A DNA stretch of 24,290 nt, taken from the IMG/VR virus record IMGVR_UViG_3300046000_003224, positions 1 to 24,290 of that record. One strand, 5' to 3'. The DNA is from a virus. Position numbers and translations under genes: made by a program. Each line of letters begins with the position of its first letter. The first letter of the stretch is position 1. This document shows positions 9,119 through 19,293 of this stretch, piece after piece. Below the pieces are notes generated by a model. That model was not told where the DNA came from and searched no databases. It was given only the letters and a program-made list of their open reading frames with translations.

Positions 9119-10644
9119 TAAGAGGCCATCCAGCCAGAGGAAATAGCGCCGCTAGCATACGCCGTGCGCGGCCTATTGTCTACGCGGGCCTCTCTGTGCG
9201 CTACGGGGAAAGCGAAAGTAATGGCTATCGCGTCTGCGGCGTCGGGGCTGGCGAGTCCACGGGCTTTCATATCTTTCTTGCTCTCCAGAAAGATCGTCCC
9301 CTTCGAGTCCGGCTTCATCATCGGTCCCGTCAGGTCGCTCCTCAGAAACCGGTCCTTCGGTATGCTGGCCGTCTTCAGCCATTCCTTCATCGCCCCCCAC
9401 ATCTCAGCGCGCTTGTTCCCATACATCAGCGGCTTGATGCTCTTATTACCGAAGTTGACGCCTCTGATCCTATACCGCTGCTCTTTCAGCCGGTCGACGA
9501 CGCCCGCTCCCAGACCACCTTCATCGATCACCACAAGCTGCGGACTGAACTCAGTTATAACGTCGATTACCCGGCCGACCACTTCCATAGTGTCATCGCC
9601 GCGGAACCGCCGGATGGACAGGATGTCCCTCCCTTGGCGTATAGCGATCACCGTCGCATCCGCCCCGAACCGCGCCGGGTCCACCCCCACGACAATCGGT
9701 GCCGATGGGTCCTTAGACGGCGCTCGCGCCATGGCTTCGTCAACGAGCAAGGTTCCGATGAACTGATCGTCGGAGGCGTTGGGGAACTCACCGTAGACCT
9801 CGACGTGGGCGGCGCTGGAGTCGGGTCCGTATTCGTCAATGATCTGCTGGTAAACGGCCTTGTCAGTTCCTTCCACACTTCGGGCGTCGACAGTCTTGGT
9901 TCGCCAGAACTCTCGCTTGCTGTTGAAGCACTCATAGAAGTAGCCGCTGTTACGGCGAGGGTTGCTGAAAGCAAGCCAAAAACGATTAGGCGTGTTCTCT
10001 GTGAAGAAACCACTAGCCACTGACCATATGCCATCGTCGATACCACTCGCCTCGTCGAACACCAGCATGACGCCGGCGAAGTTGTGGACGCCCGCGTAGG
10101 CGTCGGGGTTCTCGGCCGACCACAAGCGCCCCTCAACGCCCCAGTAGCGCGTGCCCAGCTTCAAGTCGCGCTCTACCAGCTCAGCAATCCACTTGGCCGG
10201 CAGCACGCGGGTGGCTGATACCTCGAACCAATGGCTGTTCAACGCCATGCTCAGCCACTTGGTGATCTCGGCCCAGGTGACGCTGCGGAGCTGCGCCTCG
10301 CTGTTGGCCGACACGATGGTCGTGGACCCGATCCGGGTCGTCAGCATCCAGATGACCAGCCAAGAGACTAAAGCAGACTTACCGATGCCGCGGCCCGAAC
10401 TGGTCGCCATTCGGAACGTATTAAAGTCCACCTGACCGTTGTTCGCCCGTATGTGGTCCCGCAGCTCGGTCAGCACCTCGCGCTGCCACTTGCGCGGCCC
10501 TTGGTGATGCTCCAGCGGCGTGCCGGGCTTACCCCAAGGAAACGCCATCCTCACGAACGTCAGTGGGTCGTCCTTGACCTGCGACGCCCAAAGCGTCGCC
10601 ATGAGCTTCTGTTCGTCCGTCGCTGAGAAGATCGGCGCTTGCAT
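9118..10644 (-). CDS. terL: terminase large subunit
   Basis: The 508-aa protein (P22 gp2 is 499 aa) shows both terminase domains. The ATPase has Walker A GRGIGKS at 84-90 and Walker B MLVFDEA at 193-199. The RNase H-like nuclease has Asp322 in VGVDPARFG, Asp374 in VVIDEGG, and Asp468/Asp471 in the SPDAADA segment. It packages DNA into the procapsid through the portal and cuts the concatemer. The first ~115 bases overlap the end of the small-subunit gene in another frame. The chosen ATG at 10642-10644 has an AAGGGAT site upstream. Met15 is a possible later start, still ahead of the conserved FAFPWG-like region. Confidence 0.96.
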   Translation of the reverse strand: MQAPIFSATDEQKLMATLWASQVKDDPLTFVRMAFPWGKPGTPLEHHQGPRKWQREVLTELRDHIRANNGQVDFNTFRMATSSGRGIGKSALVSWLVIWMLTTRIGSTTIVSANSEAQLRSVTWAEITKWLSMALNSHWFEVSATRVLPAKWIAELVERDLKLGTRYWGVEGRLWSAENPDAYAGVHNFAGVMLVFDEASGIDDGIWSVASGFFTENTPNRFWLAFSNPRRNSGYFYECFNSKREFWRTKTVDARSVEGTDKAVYQQIIDEYGPDSSAAHVEVYGEFPNASDDQFIGTLLVDEAMARAPSKDPSAPIVVGVDPARFGADATVIAIRQGRDILSIRRFRGDDTMEVVGRVIDVITEFSPQLVVIDEGGLGAGVVDRLKEQRYRIRGVNFGNKSIKPLMYGNKRAEMWGAMKEWLKTASIPKDRFLRSDLTGPMMKPDSKGTIFLESKKDMKARGLASPDAADAIAITFAFPVAHREARVDNRPRTAYASGAISSGWMAS

Positions 10645-11035
10645 CCAGAACTATCCCTTCGATCACCCGCTGTTTCGCCTCTTCCAGCGCCGCGGTAATA
10701 GATATGGTCTGATTAACCTCAACCTGCACGGACTGCGGCGCGGTCCATTTATGGGCATACTTCAGCATGTCCATAGCGGCCTTGGTGTCGCCGCTGCGGG
10801 CTGCGTCCATCATAATGCCCGCCAGCTCAGCCTCGCCGTCAGCGCGGCCGCGCTGCTCGAAATGCTCTGCGATAGGGTCGAGCTGCACAAGCGTCCGATA
10901 CTCGTGTGGCGTGAGCCCCGCCGCCAACGCCAGCGAGTCACCCTTCAGACCTTTCTTGGCCGATTCATAGATGCGCGTCAGCACGGCCTCAGTGGCCTTT
11001 ATAACGCGCGGCTCGTAAGGGAGAGAGTCAAACAT
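10529..11035 (-). CDS. terS: terminase small subunit
   Basis: The 168-aa product lies directly upstream of terL and is the first gene of the leftward late operon. Residues 25-65 (ESAKKGLKGDSLALAAGLTPHEYRTLVQLDP in outline) form a helix-turn-helix-like segment as in many phage small terminases. The middle part contains AARSGDTKAAMDMLKYAHKW, a hallmark stretch of this group. The protein would recognise the packaging site and regulate TerL. The last ~38 residues come from DNA that also encodes the TerL N-terminus and look low in secondary structure, so this tail may be an extension beyond the usual end. No good Shine-Dalgarno sequence precedes the ATG; the leader is very AT-rich. Confidence 0.85.
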   Translation of the reverse strand: MFDSLPYEPRVIKATEAVLTRIYESAKKGLKGDSLALAAGLTPHEYRTLVQLDPIAEHFEQRGRADGEAELAGIMMDAARSGDTKAAMDMLKYAHKWTAPQSVQVEVNQTISITAALEEAKQRVIEGIVLDASADLLSDGRTEAHGDALGVAGQGRPTDVREDGVSLG

Positions 11036-11075
11036 ACTTTGTTATAGCACTTTTTTAAAAAATTTCTTGCTGACG

Positions 11076-11125
11076 CTGCGTATTTTTAAAAATAAAAAAT
11101 TTTGCGTAATGCCTGCGTATTTTTA
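11076..11125. repeat. 13-nt direct repeat in AT-rich terS leader
   Basis: CTGCGTATTTTTA occurs at 11076-11088 and again at 11113-11125, 37 bp apart, flanking a tract of A and T runs. Both copies lie in the untranslated leader of the leftward operon. Role unknown. Confidence 0.7.
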
Positions 11126-11218
11126 CAAGGAGATCCCTCGGCCCAGCCCCCCCCGTCATGCGCGACTGCCACGCTTACGCACGGTTGCGTGCGCTGCGGC
11201 TTGGTCCATGCTTGTTAC

Positions 11219-11247
11219 ATTATAACATTACATCACTTGTGCGTAAG
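11219..11247 (-). promoter_or_regulatory. leftward (late operon) promoter candidate
   Basis: On the minus strand there is a perfect TATAAT (11219-11224) preceded by TGT, which gives the extended -10 form TGnTATAAT. A weak -35 (CTTACG, 11242-11247) lies 17 bp upstream. It would give a leader of about 175 nt before terS. The first palindrome (11259-11273) lies just upstream of the -35, a place where an activator or repressor could act. Confidence 0.6.
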
Positions 11248-11258
11248 TGCCCAACCTC

Positions 11259-11273
11259 TTGGTAGTCTACCAA
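11259..11273. promoter_or_regulatory. operator-like palindrome, copy 1
   Basis: TTGGTAG-T-CTACCAA is a perfect 7-bp inverted repeat around one central base; with flanking C and G the arms extend to 8 bp. It is the twin of the palindrome at 11341-11355 and has the size and symmetry of a dimeric helix-turn-helix repressor site. It lies 12 bp upstream of the leftward -35. Confidence 0.65.
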
Positions 11274-11340
11274 GACGCCAACACGGTTGCGTTTTAGGTA
11301 AGCCTCAAATCGCATAACAAACGCGAGCGCAACCATAGTT

Positions 11341-11355
11341 TTGGTAGGCTACCAA
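11341..11355. promoter_or_regulatory. operator-like palindrome, copy 2
   Basis: TTGGTAG-G-CTACCAA has the same arms as copy 1 and differs only at the central base. Flanking T and A extend each arm to 8 bp. Centre-to-centre distance to copy 1 is 82 bp, about eight helical turns, which would place both on the same DNA face. A degenerate relative (TTAGGTAAGCCTCAAA) lies between them near 11295-11310. Confidence 0.65.
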
Positions 11356-11430
11356 AGTGCAAAGATTGCACACCTACCCAAAACCTACCCGCCTACCAGC
11401 GCAAAAGAGGGTGCGGTAGGCGAAAGTAGG
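11343..11430. repeat. cluster of CCTACC/GGTAGG hexamers
   Basis: GGTAGG occurs at 11343-11348 and 11415-11420. Its complement CCTACC occurs at 11373-11378, 11384-11389 and 11392-11397. A one-mismatch copy, AGTAGG, lies at 11425-11430. The group at 11384-11397 and that at 11415-11430 face each other as an imperfect inverted repeat. The hexamer equals the half-site of the two palindromes, so one DNA-binding protein could occupy the whole region. Confidence 0.6.
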
Positions 11431-11481
11431 CGGTTTATGCGGTTTTAGACCGTCTACGAAAACGCGCCACAGTTTTACTAT

Positions 11482-11503
11482 TATATTAGCATATTCTAAT
11501 ATA
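11482..11503. repeat. AT-rich 22-nt palindrome
   Basis: TATATTAG and CTAATATA are perfect 8-bp inverted arms around a 6-nt spacer. The element lies in the most AT-rich part of the intergenic region, followed by T-rich DNA to about 11545. It could be an easily melted element of an origin or a regulator site. It does not resemble an intrinsic terminator, since it has no GC in the stem core. Confidence 0.5.
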
Positions 11504-11604
11504 TTACTTTTCAACCTTTTTTTATTTGTAATACAGCATATTTAGCATAACGCCTTGATATCAGGGCGCCTCCGTTGTTTCTTCCGCCACCTAACAAAAG
11601 CCTA

Positions 11605-11633
11605 TTGACTTGCCTCTTCCTTGTGCCTATACT
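11605..11633 (+). promoter_or_regulatory. rightward early promoter, sigma-70 type
   Basis: TTGACT (11605-11610) and TATACT (11628-11633) are separated by exactly 17 bp, each one mismatch from consensus. Transcription would start near 11640, about 20 nt ahead of the first small gene of the rightward operon. This is the best promoter in the window and probably uses the host RNA polymerase immediately after entry. Confidence 0.85.
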
Positions 11634-11660
11634 ACACAAATCAACAACGGAGACAGTCCA

Positions 11661-11744
11661 ATGCTAACAACCCTCGAAGCCCTGCAAACATTCGCCGCGT
11701 GCGGTCTGATCGCCGCGATCGTCGCCGCTATCGTCACGCCCTGA
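11661..11744 (+). CDS. 27-aa hydrophobic membrane peptide, first gene of early operon
   Basis: ATG at 11661 follows a GGAGA site and lies about 20 nt after the predicted start of transcription. The frame encodes 27 residues. After a short N-terminus (MLTTLEALQTF) it has one continuous hydrophobic segment (AACGLIAAIVAAIVT), long enough to cross a membrane once, and it ends in Pro. The next gene begins one base after its stop. Placement as the first gene behind the strongest promoter, with a proper ribosome binding site, supports a real gene. Its function is unknown; it could also be a leader peptide for the following gene. Confidence 0.6.
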   Translation: MLTTLEALQTFAACGLIAAIVAAIVTP

Positions 11745-12293: not shown

Positions 12294-12611
12294 ATGGAAC
12301 TGGAATACATCATCACGCTACACCGTGACGGCGCGCAAATCTTCCGTGCGCGCGTCCCGGCCAAACAGTGTGGGGACCGCTTGGGCGGTCTGGTGGGCGA
12401 CTACCACAACGGTCTGCCCTATCAGCCCGATCCTGACGTTATCCTGCTAAAGCTCCCGCACGCCTACCGTAAGGCGTTCGAACGCTCGCTAGGATGGTGG
12501 CAGGCTCACTTCCCAGGCTCACGCCCGGTCCCGCTAAAATGCGAGCTGACCAGCACCAAAGGCTACGGGATAGGCGTGCTGTTCGCCACGCCCGACTGGC
12601 CGGTTGTGTAA
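12294..12611 (+). CDS. hypothetical early protein, 105 aa
   Basis: I do not recognise the family. The ATG at 12294 lies three bases after the methyltransferase stop, with GGGGAT just upstream. An in-frame ATG at 12282 inside the preceding gene would add four residues and is less likely. The product has an N-terminal strand region (LEYIITLHRDGAQIFRARVP), a Cys at about 24, and a Trp-Trp pair in GWWQAHFPG. It looks like a small soluble alpha/beta protein with no membrane segment. It lies in the rightward operon, so an early role in host takeover or regulation is plausible, but nothing specific can be claimed. Confidence 0.7.
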   Translation: MELEYIITLHRDGAQIFRARVPAKQCGDRLGGLVGDYHNGLPYQPDPDVILLKLPHAYRKAFERSLGWWQAHFPGSRPVPLKCELTSTKGYGIGVLFATPDWPVV

Positions 12612-12653: not shown

Positions 12654-13178
12654 ATGGACGATAGATTGAAAGAAACCGGCCGCAGCGCGTATGCGGCTAT
12701 CGAGGAAATGGTTGACGCGCTCAACGTCGACTATGATCGGCTTATGGAGCTTCGAGAGGAGCGCCAAGCGTTGCTCGACATGATTGCGGACGCTGAATCG
12801 CACGAGAAAGCCGACGCGCGCGCCGAGCTTGCCCAGTGGGACGAAGAGAACAAAGACGAACTGGACGAACTAAGCGCCGACGCCGGAGAGTGTGTAAGCT
12901 TGGAAGAGGCGCAAACGCGAATCCAGGAAGACGCGCTATTAATCGAAGTCCGCAGCGGGTGGTGCGCGCTGGGCGACACGCTAGAGGCGGGGGAATTTAG
13001 CATTCTGATAGCCACGGGAGGACCGGCCGTGTGGATTCGCGGCGAGCTAGACGACAACCGCGAGCCTTCCCGCGCATGGTTAGAGGTTCAGGACTGGGGG
13101 ACGCCTTGGACGCGCTACTATGACGCCTCGCAAGAGGTGCTGCTCGCCTATGCGCGTTGTTTCTGTTTCGGAGAGTAA
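12654..13178 (+). CDS. conserved phage hypothetical protein, 174 aa
   Basis: A strong AAAGGAG site precedes the ATG. Residues 1-85 form a charged, likely coiled-coil helix pair (MVDALNVDYDRLMELREERQ, then a Glu/Asp-rich run). From about residue 85 the pattern becomes a compact domain with RIQEDALLIEVRSGW, LIATGGPAVWIRGELDD, and SRAWLEVQDWGTPWTRYY. I recognise the 'IRGELD...WLxxQDWGTPWT' pattern from many phages and prophages, where it is uncharacterised. Those relatives usually also have the acidic helical N-terminus. No catalytic motif is clear. The gene is followed after two bases by the XRE regulator. Confidence 0.8.
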   Translation: MDDRLKETGRSAYAAIEEMVDALNVDYDRLMELREERQALLDMIADAESHEKADARAELAQWDEENKDELDELSADAGECVSLEEAQTRIQEDALLIEVRSGWCALGDTLEAGEFSILIATGGPAVWIRGELDDNREPSRAWLEVQDWGTPWTRYYDASQEVLLAYARCFCFGE

Positions 13179-13180
13179 AC

Positions 13181-13396
13181 GTGACAACATACAAGCCAAT
13201 GCCGATAGCCGTGGCGCTACGCCAGCGCCGCAAGCAGCTACGGCTGTCACAAGCCGTAGTAGCAGAGAAGGCCGGTTACAACGCCAATGCCATATGGGCG
13301 TGGGAAACCGGTTACTGTAAACCGTCAATCCCGCGCCTAGTGGACTGGTGCGGGGCTCTGGGGCTCGAACTAACAGTAAAGGTGAAAGATGGATAA
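13181..13396 (+). CDS. XRE/Cro-type DNA-binding regulator, 71 aa
   Basis: The preferred start is GTG at 13181, two bases after the previous stop, with GGAGAG six bases upstream; a TTG at 13157 inside the previous gene is less convincing. The helix-turn-helix spans about residues 10-50: LRQRRKQLRLSQAVVAEKAG, then NANAIWAWETGYCKPSIPRL, the standard XRE pattern with recognition helix near 33-43. It is Cro-sized and lacks the C-terminal cleavage domain of CI repressors. The matching palindromes at 11259 and 11341 are natural candidates for its operators, which would allow it to switch the leftward promoter. That pairing is inference. Confidence 0.85.
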   Translation: MTTYKPMPIAVALRQRRKQLRLSQAVVAEKAGYNANAIWAWETGYCKPSIPRLVDWCGALGLELTVKVKDG

Positions 13397-15568: not shown

Positions 15569-15980
15569 TCAAGTCACCTGGAATGTAGAGAGCCGGTCTA
15601 TCACTATCCACGGCCTTAATGGCAAGCCGTGGGCGCGCATCCACCTGCCCTTGGCCGATGATCGCGCCATCATAACGGCCGGCTATGCCCTAAACTTTGC
15701 AACGAAAGAGCCCGAAAATGCGAGACGAAACGCCGCCCACCATCCACGCAGAACGGATGGAGCAACAACGCCAGATTCGGAAGATGGTAGAAGAGGCCGC
15801 AAAGGCGCTTCACACGACGCCCGACGCCCTGATCTGTCACGACCGAACGTCGTGGAAAGTGTCAGTGCGAGACGAGATAATGTGGCGCGCCAGGCGGGAG
15901 CTAAAAGCAAGCTATCCGACGATAGCGGGCGTCTTCCGGTACAATCACACGGCGGTCATGGCGGCGGTGAGGCGATATGA
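15549..15980 (+). CDS. hypothetical protein, 143 aa, with doubtful C-terminal half
   Basis: It starts with GTG at 15549 behind GAGGAGAG. Residues 1-58 look like a normal compact protein: MWKVTPSQVTWNVESRSITI, then HGLNGKPWARIHLPLADDRA and IITAGYALNFATKEP, a beta-rich domain. From about residue 58 the composition changes abruptly to Arg, Gly, His, Ser and Asp with no hydrophobic core. This part (15718-15980) is read from DNA that also encodes the DnaA-like protein in another frame. The natural gene probably ended near 15720 and has lost its stop, or a frameshift has extended it. A truly dual-coded extension is possible but less likely. Confidence 0.5.
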   Translation: MWKVTPSQVTWNVESRSITIHGLNGKPWARIHLPLADDRAIITAGYALNFATKEPENARRNAAHHPRRTDGATTPDSEDGRRGRKGASHDARRPDLSRPNVVESVSARRDNVARQAGAKSKLSDDSGRLPVQSHGGHGGGEAI

Positions 15981-15990
15981 AAGACGTTGA
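15718..15990 (+). CDS. DnaA domain IV-like DNA-binding protein, 90 aa
   Basis: The chosen ATG is 15718; an in-frame TTG at 15697 would add seven residues. Residues 1-30 form a helix (ERMEQQRQIRKMVEEAAKAL). The rest matches the C-terminal DNA-binding domain of DnaA: HTTPDALICHDR (counterpart of the 'V..ED' segment), then ARRELKASYPTIAGVFRYNHTAVMAAVRRYE in outline, where YPTIAGVF and NHTAVMAAVRRYE correspond to the DnaA signature helix (DHTTVLHAVRKIE type). The AAA+ domain is absent. Similar stand-alone domains occur in phages and may mark a phage origin or regulate transcription. The repeats at 11259-11430 are candidate sites. Both neighbours overlap it. Confidence 0.75.
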   Translation: MRDETPPTIHAERMEQQRQIRKMVEEAAKALHTTPDALICHDRTSWKVSVRDEIMWRARRELKASYPTIAGVFRYNHTAVMAAVRRYERR

Positions 15991-16325: not shown

Positions 16326-16527
16326 AGGATGGCGTTTCTCCGAACCCGAGCCCCGCCAATAGCTCTTGCGCCGACTCATGCGCCGCGCAGAGGCGATCTA
16401 TAACCGCCTCCGGGCACTCATCATCACCTGGCGTCGCCGCCCAGTCTAAATAGTCGTCGACTGACTCGGTTAGCTCTGCCAGCGTCTCTAGGACGTGCTT
16501 ATACAGATCGATTGATTGGGTAGACAT
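16324..16527 (-). CDS. small acidic protein, last gene of replication operon, 67 aa
   Basis: The product starts inside the end of the primase-helicase gene (29-bp overlap) and ends within the T tract of the terminator on the other strand. It reads MSTQSIDLYKHVLETLAELT, then ESVDDYLDWAATPGDDECPE, and AVIDRLCAAHESAQELLAGL. It is acidic and helical, with no recognised family. GAAAGAT upstream of the ATG is only a weak ribosome binding site, so translation may depend on the preceding gene. Nothing shows whether it is a replication accessory protein or unrelated. Confidence 0.6.
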   Translation of the reverse strand: MSTQSIDLYKHVLETLAELTESVDDYLDWAATPGDDECPEAVIDRLCAAHESAQELLAGLGFGETPS

Positions 16528-18802
16528 TATCTTTCGGCGCTCCTTCTCCGCTTATCCTAGCCCACTCCCGGCGGATGTCAGAATTAGACCATTCCGCCAG
16601 CTCCGGCCGCACGAAACAATGCCGTTTAGTTGGATAATCTTTGGAGTAGATCAGTCCCTTGTCGATCCAACCAGCTTCCTTCAACGCATGAAAAAACGCC
16701 GGCTGCACGATGCGTAGGTTATTCCCCGCGCGGTCATTCAATTCTTTCAGAACTTTGTGCCACGGGCCACCGATAATATCTCTATCAAACGGCGCGACGC
16801 GCTCTTCTATCTCATGGTAGACGTAGCTCTCCGCCTGGCTCATGCCAGTATAAACCAGCTTGCGCTTGTAGTCTGTCATCATCGGCGGCTGTTTCGGGTT
16901 GAACATCGACACGTCACGGGCGTAGAGCCACTGCGCTACAGCTTGGAAACCTCCAGCTTTATACCAGTCCCACATATCTGCGGCTGCATGTTCGCTCATG
17001 CGCGCGGCGGTGGACCATATACAGAACCAGCGCCGATCATCTGAATCAAGCGTAATAGGTGTGTCTTCGTTCGTAAACGCGACCACAAGCAGCCGATTCG
17101 GCATTTCGTAAGGATGCAGACTCTTGCGATTGACGGTCAGCATCTCCGGCGGCGCGGCGATGATGGGTTTCAGCTTGTTCGCCATCGCCCGGCGGTCGCG
17201 CGCCTCGGGCTCTTTCAATTCATTAAGGATGATTACTTCGCTCTGATAGTGATACCCCCAGTCCGAGACGATCTTATCGCCATCGATTATCTTAACATTT
17301 TGTAAACTGTCGCCCGACACGGCCCAAAAGAACGGAGCCCACATAGTATCCTTGCCGGAACCGCCGTGGCCGCCGTGCAGCACGGCATGGTTAATTTTAA
17401 TCTTCGGATTCTTCAGCTTGAACGCCATAACGTCCCAGACGTGCGCAAGCTCTTCCCCGTTAGGAACCAACTTGCGGCAGTGGTCAATCCACCGTTGCGG
17501 ATCGCCGCCGGCGGTTATTGCGGGGCGGAAGTTACGCCAGACATTGCCGTAAACGAGCCCGTCCTTATGCACTTGCCAGTCGTCGCCGGCGGCGTAGGTC
17601 ATGCCGTGCAAGGCGTAGCCGTTGCGTTCCTCGCGGAACATATCGAACCACACGGACGCCTCTAGCCGGCGTTTCTTGCCGTCGGCGGCCTGCGCGTAGC
17701 AGTCGACGTGACGATAGAGCGCGTTGAAGGCTTTGCGGCTCAGTTCCGAACAAGTCTCGCGGTCGAAATAGGCGTCGTCAGTAGCGACGTAAGCGAACCG
17801 CGCGTGCCAGCCGTCGCGCGTCTCGCGCCCAGCCTGCTTGCGCTCTACGGCTGCGATCTGCGGCGTCACGACATCAGGGAATGCCTCCGTCGGTTCGGGC
17901 GGCTGCATCTCGGTCAGCATGTCGGAGAGGATGTCGTCGCGCAGTCCTGGACGGCGACGCGGCCCACCCTGTTCACCCACCCACTCAAGAAAGGCTTCGC
18001 TGGTCAGATGTTCGCAATGGCCGTGAAAACAGAAGAACGCGCGGGACTGCGGCATATACCGCGCCTCGCCTTGACCGTCCGTATGCGCGGCGTGATTCGG
18101 GCATACAACGCCCATCCAGCCTTCGTGATTTACGCGGGACGTAATAAGGTTGTTCTCATTCAGCCACGCCACGACATCATCTTTGCCGCTGTCCGTAAGC
18201 CGTATGTGATGCGTATTCGTCTCGACAGGCTCCAGCGTGACGCCGAACGCTTCGACGATCTGTGCGACGGTAAACTCGCGGGAAGGATCGAACGTCACTT
18301 CGCGGCACACGAAGTCCTCGCGGCCGGGCTTGCGATTTACCGACCCTGGAAGGCGACAGTTGCGCACGGGGTTGGTAGCGCCAGGATCGGTGTAGCCGGC
18401 CTTAGCGAGCGCGGTCAGAAGTGAACAGTGTTCGTCTACGGTAGGCTGGTCGCTGTAAGCATACCAGTATTGAAAATTGCCGGGGCTCGTCTCGACGATA
18501 GCGGTGGGCGCGAGCGGCGGCTCTTTGGACTTGGTGCCGATGTCATCCAGCATCAGGAAAAGAGTGTGCGTGCAATGGTTCCTGGATGCAGATGGCTGGC
18601 CATCCTCAAACCGCTCGCGGATGAAGGATCCCGTATTCAGAAACCAAGACTCGCCCGCGCGGCGCTTGTGCTTGGGATAATACGCCGGCCAAGTGTAGCG
18701 CGGCGAGCCATCCAGATACGTGCGGCCGGTAGCGATTTGCTGCACGATGAGCGCCGTCTCGCCCTCGGGCGCAAGCTGTGTGAAGTATTCAAAGAGTGTC
18801 AT
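16499..18802 (-). CDS. primase-polymerase / SF3 (D5-like) helicase fusion, 767 aa
   Basis: The N-terminal ~200 residues look like an archaeo-eukaryotic primase of the phage/RepB type: LFLMLDDIG (acidic pair near 86-87), ETSPGNFQYWY (104-114), and NCRLPGSVNRKPG (148-160). A central zinc-ribbon-like segment has Cys234, His237, Cys258 and Cys263 (VCPNH ... CFHGHC). The C-terminal part is a superfamily 3 helicase: Walker A GGHGGSGKDT (477-486), Walker B EVIILNE (522-528), and a sensor/arginine region VVAFTNEDTP ... DDRRWF (573-593). It would prime and unwind DNA for the family A polymerase upstream in the operon. It overlaps the HNH gene by four bases (ATGA). Confidence 0.9.
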   Translation of the reverse strand: MTLFEYFTQLAPEGETALIVQQIATGRTYLDGSPRYTWPAYYPKHKRRAGESWFLNTGSFIRERFEDGQPSASRNHCTHTLFLMLDDIGTKSKEPPLAPTAIVETSPGNFQYWYAYSDQPTVDEHCSLLTALAKAGYTDPGATNPVRNCRLPGSVNRKPGREDFVCREVTFDPSREFTVAQIVEAFGVTLEPVETNTHHIRLTDSGKDDVVAWLNENNLITSRVNHEGWMGVVCPNHAAHTDGQGEARYMPQSRAFFCFHGHCEHLTSEAFLEWVGEQGGPRRRPGLRDDILSDMLTEMQPPEPTEAFPDVVTPQIAAVERKQAGRETRDGWHARFAYVATDDAYFDRETCSELSRKAFNALYRHVDCYAQAADGKKRRLEASVWFDMFREERNGYALHGMTYAAGDDWQVHKDGLVYGNVWRNFRPAITAGGDPQRWIDHCRKLVPNGEELAHVWDVMAFKLKNPKIKINHAVLHGGHGGSGKDTMWAPFFWAVSGDSLQNVKIIDGDKIVSDWGYHYQSEVIILNELKEPEARDRRAMANKLKPIIAAPPEMLTVNRKSLHPYEMPNRLLVVAFTNEDTPITLDSDDRRWFCIWSTAARMSEHAAADMWDWYKAGGFQAVAQWLYARDVSMFNPKQPPMMTDYKRKLVYTGMSQAESYVYHEIEERVAPFDRDIIGGPWHKVLKELNDRAGNNLRIVQPAFFHALKEAGWIDKGLIYSKDYPTKRHCFVRPELAEWSNSDIRREWARISGEGAPKDNVYPINRSV

Positions 18803-19293
18803 TTCATAGCCCCGTGGGAGAAATATTGTTTTTCTGCTTTTAATCTTGCTTCTGCGGCGGCTTCTTTGGAGTCAAACAGGCCAAGATGTATCTGTCTATA
18901 ACTATCAAATATATACGCTCGCCATTTGTTTCGCTGAGAGTGCCACGCCACACCCTTATACCCACTGGTGTTGTGTTTGTGCTTTCGCACGTTTTGCATA
19001 TTCTGTTTACGCGTAGCCTCCCGTAAATTTTCTATACGATTGTCCAACTTATCGCCGTTGATGTGGTCTAAATCGCCGCGAGGCCAAACAGCCCATACGT
19101 AAAGCCATGCTAATCGATGCGCCATGTATCGCTTCTTATCTATTGTTATGATACGATAGCCATGGTTTTGAACTGTACCCGCAAGTTCACCCGCACGATG
19201 ACATCCATGACGACCAACAGCAACGCGCCGCGTAAAGTCACCGGATTTTTTGTCGTAAACAAATAACGCTGCCAATCGCTCGCGTGTAATCAC
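18799..19293 (-). CDS. free-standing HNH homing endonuclease with AP2 DNA-binding domain
   Basis: The 164-aa product has an HNH domain with YMAHRLAW (His59) followed by LDHINGDKLDNRIENLR (Asp76-His77, Asn79, Asn85, Asn89). The AP2 domain follows at about 110-158: SGYKGVAWHSQRNKW, then IHLGLFDSKEAAAEARLKAE. This pairing is standard for phage HNH homing endonucleases. It starts at a GTG with AAAGGGG made by the end of the polymerase gene, and ends as ATGA with the primase-helicase, so it is fully built into the operon. The gene is visibly more AT-rich than both flanking genes, consistent with later arrival. No intron or intein boundary is seen. Confidence 0.92.
   Translation of the reverse strand: MITRERLAALFVYDKKSGDFTRRVAVGRHGCHRAGELAGTVQNHGYRIITIDKKRYMAHRLAWLYVWAVWPRGDLDHINGDKLDNRIENLREATRKQNMQNVRKHKHNTSGYKGVAWHSQRNKWRAYIFDSYRQIHLGLFDSKEAAAEARLKAEKQYFSHGAMK

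Follow-up and report, generated by a model that had tools for sequence, protein, structure and literature searches.

The P4 alpha protein, acting with ori and crr, is a primase-helicase initiator whose short iterons occur in both orientations and lie some way from its gene. In both SaPI Rep and Cch2, short iterons are recognised by the C-terminal domain, which in the case of Cch2 binds 5-nt iterons (AAGTG) specifically even when isolated (PMC7581432). In PICI origins, an AT-rich region is located between two sets of iterons (PMC6092414).

The stretch of DNA analyzed here (the window) is the whole of the 24.3-kb viral record IMGVR_UViG_3300046000_003224 (24,290 nt). It carries P22-like portal and coat genes and a terminase large subunit (TerL) 85% identical to that of MW202483. 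Its other products include a primase-helicase, a DUF2800 exonuclease and a DNA polymerase of family A. The gene of DSL-LC05 that corresponds in position to the small terminase subunit (TerS) of the window is annotated as terminase small subunit. An HNH endonuclease with an AP2-type domain is encoded between the primase and DNA polymerase genes (18799-19293, minus strand). A gap of 625 bp (11036-11660) separates the leftward TerS from a rightward operon. On comparative evidence, the part of this gap from 11259 to about 11604 is probably the iteron replication origin of this P22-like phage, with the phage-encoded primase-helicase as its reader. The features under discussion are listed in Table 1.

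Table 1. Positions in the window of the elements of the proposed origin and of the genes compared with it
Feature	Position	Strand	Remarks
TerS position (small terminase subunit)	10529-11035	-	just upstream of TerL; adjoins proposed origin; control gene
Palindrome 1, TTGGTAG-T-CTACCAA	11259-11273	none	exact copy TTGGTAGTCTACCAA
Palindrome 2, TTGGTAG-G-CTACCAA	11341-11355	none	exact copy TTGGTAGGCTACCAA; core TTGGTA-N3-TACCAA
Iteron hexamer CCTACC	11373-11378	+	
Iteron hexamer CCTACC	11384-11389	+	11 bp after hexamer at 11373
Iteron hexamer CCTACC	11392-11397	+	8 bp after hexamer at 11384
Iteron hexamer (GGTAGG on +)	11415-11420	-	
Degenerate iteron (GTAGGC on +)	11426-11431	-	
AT-rich stretch, candidate DNA unwinding element	11473-11532	none	85% A+T; measured on L169, identical to window
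CACCTAACAAAAGCCTA	11588-11604	+	two CCTA words 11 bp apart, right of AT-rich stretch, abutting -35
Rightward sigma-70-like promoter, TTGACT-17-TATACT	11605-11633	+	promoter scan
XRE-type HTH protein	13157-13396	+	candidate binder in the sequence-only reading; disfavoured
DnaA-domain-IV-like protein, stand-alone	15697-15990	+	PF08299, E 2e-7; disfavoured as general reader
Primase-helicase, 767 aa	16499-18802	-	RepB_primase/AEP N-terminus, DUF5906 helicase, C-terminal winged helix; proposed initiator
Primase-helicase C-terminal region, residues 635-767	16502-16900	-	modelled winged helix; proposed iteron-reading domain

An earlier, sequence-only reading had remarked that TTGGTAG-n-CTACCAA occurs twice, that its half-site recurs as hexamers in both orientations up to about 11430, and that such a density of sites is missing from the rest of the window. 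All three observations are borne out. The two palindromes are exact, lie 82 bp apart (start to start) and differ only at the central base. A search of the whole window with up to three mismatches yielded no copy beyond these two; shuffled sequences contain on average 0.5 sites at three mismatches, while both real copies have none. Five of the seven copies of CCTACC/GGTAGG in the window fall within 11343-11420, the other two being at 12463 and 18440. In the 625-bp gap, the five copies compare with 0.23 expected (0/500 shuffles), and CTACC is found eight times against 1.0 expected. Palindrome 1 consists of two TACCAA iterons placed head to head with an offset of 9 bp, and can be extended to TCTTGGTAG-N-CTACCAAGA. 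The repeat element continues past 11430 with the AT-rich stretch, followed by CCTA words up to the rightward -35. The segment bearing two of these words (11588-11604) is 82% like 11371-11387 and is kept in relatives of the window's clade, including L170.

The rightward promoter is kept as TTGACA-17-TACATT in the alignment of several relatives. The sequence-only reading had also put one copy of the palindrome immediately upstream of a leftward promoter. The promoter scanner reported only the rightward one; by eye, a possible extended -10 (TGTTATAAT) may be seen on the minus strand at 11227-11219. The GC skew tracks gene orientation and provides no mark of an origin. The rightward operon begins with a hydrophobic ORF of 27 codons (11661-11744, plus strand; MLTTLEALQTFAACGLIAAIVAAIVTP), which is 96-100% conserved in close relatives and is duplicated in L117 and L135, with about 500 bp inserted; similar peptides are encoded at the corresponding position in distant relatives such as L193.

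L151 and L169 are nearly identical to the window and were not treated as independent genomes. In the alignment of close relatives, palindrome 1 is perfect in L130, L111, L117, L135 and L119. L130 and L111 have both palindromes at the spacing of the window, and the other three hold palindrome 2 as TTGGTAGGTTACCAA; the conserved core is therefore TTGGTA-N3-TACCAA, that is, inverted TACCAA words 9 bp apart. In contrast, both palindromes are missing from L170/L215, the relative that tells most, where a different sequence fills the middle of the gap. A scan of IMG/VR for TTGGTAGNCTACCAA found 84 stretches, about the number due to chance for 14 fixed bases, and the palindrome pair was confined to close relatives.

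The gap of L170/L215 does contain CCTACC and CACCTA words, has 13 CCTA against 5.1 expected, and includes an AT-rich stretch of its own. Since the words are kept there without the palindromes, the shared unit is the short word and not the palindrome. The same relative has a TerS 99% identical and an XRE protein 93% identical to those of the window, the HTH core being essentially unchanged. When the window is compared with L215, the repeat block cannot be aligned and DNA identity also drops at the 3' end of the primase gene, with about 94% identity on either side. Residues 5-220 of the primase are 99% identical between the two, and residues 680-767 only 77%. Of the primase positions that differ in L215 alone, 33 of 35 lie in residues 400-767, while 18 of the 26 that differ in L130 alone lie in residues 1-400. 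The DnaA-domain-IV-like protein is 91-92% conserved among the window, L130 and L215 despite the replacement of the block.

The wider family was represented by about 80 non-redundant gaps, with TerS 45-100% identical. Arrays of short words, in both orientations and often 9 bp apart, are found in the same gap throughout these relatives, except that a clear array is missing from some of them. Same-strand CCTA pairs at a spacing of 9 bp number 73, against 1.1 expected. The word varies with lineage: CCTACC in the window, and TGACCCAA, TGACYCAC, GTCCACA, TGACCTA, TGCCGAA, CGCCTAA and others elsewhere. In several genomes the lineage word is nearly confined to the gap; for example, L050 has 12 copies in the gap and L082 has 13, with none elsewhere (in 20 kb of L050). 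With each gap divided at its most AT-rich 60 bp, the family-wide counts of word orientation are 193 minus and 43 plus on the left, and 15 minus and 61 plus on the right. The nominal p of 1e-22 for this flip should not be taken literally, because the counts lack phylogenetic independence. The window departs from this pattern in that its words on the left are mixed in orientation, and its right-hand set comprises only 2-3 CCTA words.

Other repeats are also present in these gaps. At 100-200 bp upstream of TerS, relatives show an excess of words of a second family, TGTMAAC/GTTKACA (GTTTACA 89 against 11 expected, GTTGACA 66 against 6). Perfect tandem repeats of 5-12 bp, which show no sequence relation to the iterons, occur in the gap upstream of TerS in L117/L111 (GATCGGCGAGC), L186, L017, L040 and L059. 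HNH or homing endonuclease genes, or their remnants, adjoin TerS beside the proposed origin in L111, L119, L198, L199, L202 and L083.

To find which protein follows the word, all the open frames shared by 11 genomes with three clean words were ranked by how sharply their identity distinguishes pairs of genomes with the same word from pairs with different words. The word classes had been set during exploration, and the ranking covered all shared frames afterwards. One genome (L064) was initially classed as TGACCCA from its most frequent word and was moved to TGACYCAC after the primase comparison; the 8-mers that back this relabelling (four TGACCCAC, two TGACTCAC and no TGACCCAA) were counted after the gene scan. 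The primase-helicase, 91.9% identical within words and 75.2% between them (AUC 0.97), is the only confirmed gene near the top of the ranking; the rows with an AUC of 1.0 are antisense frames over the primase coding region, mostly over its C-terminal end. Other genes gave AUCs of 0.48 (TerS, with 88.5% identity within words and 88.9% between), 0.47 (TerL), 0.38-0.39 (portal) and 0.33 (DNA polymerase). Along the primase, the AUC is 0.66-0.71 in residues 1-300 and 0.92-1.00 in residues 301-767, so that the signal extends over the C-terminal half and is not limited to the winged helix. The repeated word and the C-terminal half of the primase change jointly, while TerS, TerL, portal and DNA polymerase do not change with the word.

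Individual comparisons illustrate this relation. L082 and L075 have primase N-termini 97% identical, different words, and C-terminal ends only 54% identical, while L082 and L069 share the word and have C-terminal ends 91% identical. In the contrast of GTCCACA with TGACCCAA, the word-diagnostic columns make up 16 of the 42 variable ones in residues 600-767 and 4 of 78 in residues 1-400, and several of the diagnostic residues belong to the wing (715-724) of the winged helix. L054/L037 is a counter-example, with nearly the same primase C-terminus and yet the words TGACCTA and TTGCCTA.

Among 49 genomes, nearest neighbours by primase C-terminus share words with a score of 0.45, against 0.20 for those by TerS (p = 0.0002); although TerS adjoins the origin, its nearest neighbours predict the word worst. 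The primase C-terminus also performs better than single N-terminal segments of 100 residues (p 0.007-0.04), but no better than residues 6-300 joined (p = 0.24). A global partial Mantel test (32 genomes, 6-mer cosine similarity) showed no peak at the primase C-terminus; among distant genomes, unrelated words dominate this measure, but the result still counts as negative. Physical linkage partly confounds these comparisons, since of the two ends of the primase gene it is the C-terminal one that lies nearer to the gap. The genes between the gap and the primase have intermediate AUCs (0.77-0.80), below that of the primase, and linked recombination therefore explains part of the signal.

These results may be set against other readings of the sites. 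An operator array, in which the XRE protein or another small early regulator would bind the sites and control the divergent promoters, is unlikely. The sites do lie between divergent transcription units with CCTA words abutting the rightward -35, palindromes suit a dimer, and the XRE protein, which is found only in the small clade of the window, shares this clade with the palindromes. However, L170/L215 retains the XRE protein with its HTH core essentially unchanged and lacks the palindromes, and relatives with stronger arrays have no detectable homologue of the protein; that is, the sites are not kept alongside this regulator. Moreover, operators would not usually comprise 12-15 sites spread along about 500 bp on both sides of an AT-rich stretch, and the word is followed by the primase and not by a regulator. 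The repeats of the P1 pac site are hexamers too, terminase sites are often near the small terminase gene, and in every relative examined the gap lies immediately upstream of TerS. Nevertheless, a packaging (pac/cos-like) site with repeats read by the adjoining TerS is quite improbable, considering that the site does not change together with TerS in either the 11 or the 49 genomes, and that the window and L215 have nearly the same TerS despite the replaced block.

There is very little probability that the region is a DnaA-like origin, with the 9-bp-spaced words bound by the DnaA-domain-IV-like protein or by host DnaA. For the phage-encoded protein, PF08299 is not detected in the near-full-length L050 (36.5 kb) and L082 (37.1 kb), both with strong arrays of 12-13 iterons, and its conservation among the window, L130 and L215 does not reflect the exchange of the block. 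The idea draws on DnaA boxes being 9-mers, which recalls the 9-bp spacing, and on the wide occurrence of the protein in the clade (found in 18 of 36 records, of which many are short). Both the conservation of the half-sites and the family-wide arrays give good support to the proposal of the sequence-only reading that one protein reads them, whereas the two binders which that reading put forward, the XRE and DnaA-like proteins, are disfavoured.

The structure of the primase-helicase is consistent with its being the reader of the iterons. Its profile matches are to RepB_primase (E 2.1e-11), DUF5906 (E 1.5e-10) and the NrS-1 primase-polymerase (E 8.8e-10). The C-terminal 133 residues are modelled as a winged helix (mean pLDDT 80, core 86-91). 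With this domain alone, Foldseek gave no significant match (best E 0.11), and many of the rows from VIA-align are winged helices, which are weak (top Z 6.6) and suggestive only. The full model matches the C-terminal region of the NrS-1 primase (6k9c, Z 25.6), the SaPI5 primase-helicase (7ola, Z 18.2) and PriRep1 with dsDNA (Z 14.1), and its N-terminus matches AEP primases. As modelled, primase, SF3/D5-type helicase and C-terminal winged helix would be joined in a single initiator, as in SaPIs and PICIs.

For the iteron origin favoured here, the analysis shows the sequence features, their arrangement throughout the family, the orientation flip, a model of the protein fold and the joint change of word and primase C-terminal half; from these we infer origin function, binding of the primase to the iterons, the residues that read the word, ring loading and melting. 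The iterons (TACCAA/CCTACC, as two head-to-head pairs and a hexamer run) would stand to the left of the AT-rich unwinding element and a few CCTA words to its right; the primase-helicase would dock on them through its C-terminal winged helix, load as a ring at the AT-rich stretch and start replication, like SaPI Rep. Since the site is between divergent promoters, it may couple replication with early transcription, and since CCTA words abut the rightward -35, transcriptional control is possible as a second role. It may also be, although we consider this rather doubtful, that in this widespread environmental phage family the origin word and the C-terminal half of the initiator form a two-part specificity module, swapped or co-evolving as a pair 5 kb apart. 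If so, the origins of close relatives that share a cell would be private to each of them, and origin-level competition or parasitism could select such diversity. With about ten natural iteron words, for each of which the matching initiator sequences are available, the family forms a ready data set on how a primase-helicase reads its origin and how origin specificity changes.

Compared with the SaPI/PICI replicons (SaPI5, SaPIbov1, EcCICFT073), the likeness is in a Rep or primase-Rep combined with an iteron origin, and SaPI5 has a primase-helicase of the same fold. A cluster of short iterons in a non-coding region is likewise present, and family-wide the iteron sets flank an AT-rich region and are inverted between its sides, with the left set mixed in the window. 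In contrast to the SaPI/PICI origin, which is directly 3' of the initiator gene, the proposed origin is about 5 kb from that gene and beside TerS, with the rightward operon in between, and its left-hand words are partly head-to-head palindromes. The window also has its own P22-like portal, coat and TerL, unlike a PICI satellite. Being a phage with its own structural genes, and with an origin that is not next to the initiator gene, it is not filed as a PICI. Cch2/CCPol-MP of SCCmec is similar in its D5/Primase_Cterm-type helicase, and differs in having only three iterons, directly downstream of the gene, and separate helicase and primase. The helicase and C-terminal part have their closest structural match in the NrS-1 primase-polymerase; as to differences, the window phage also encodes a family A DNA polymerase. 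The primase-helicase of the window is likened by description to P4 alpha (cf. PMC6092414). The same origin layout in P22-like phages would extend the SaPI/PICI-type layout to free-living phages.
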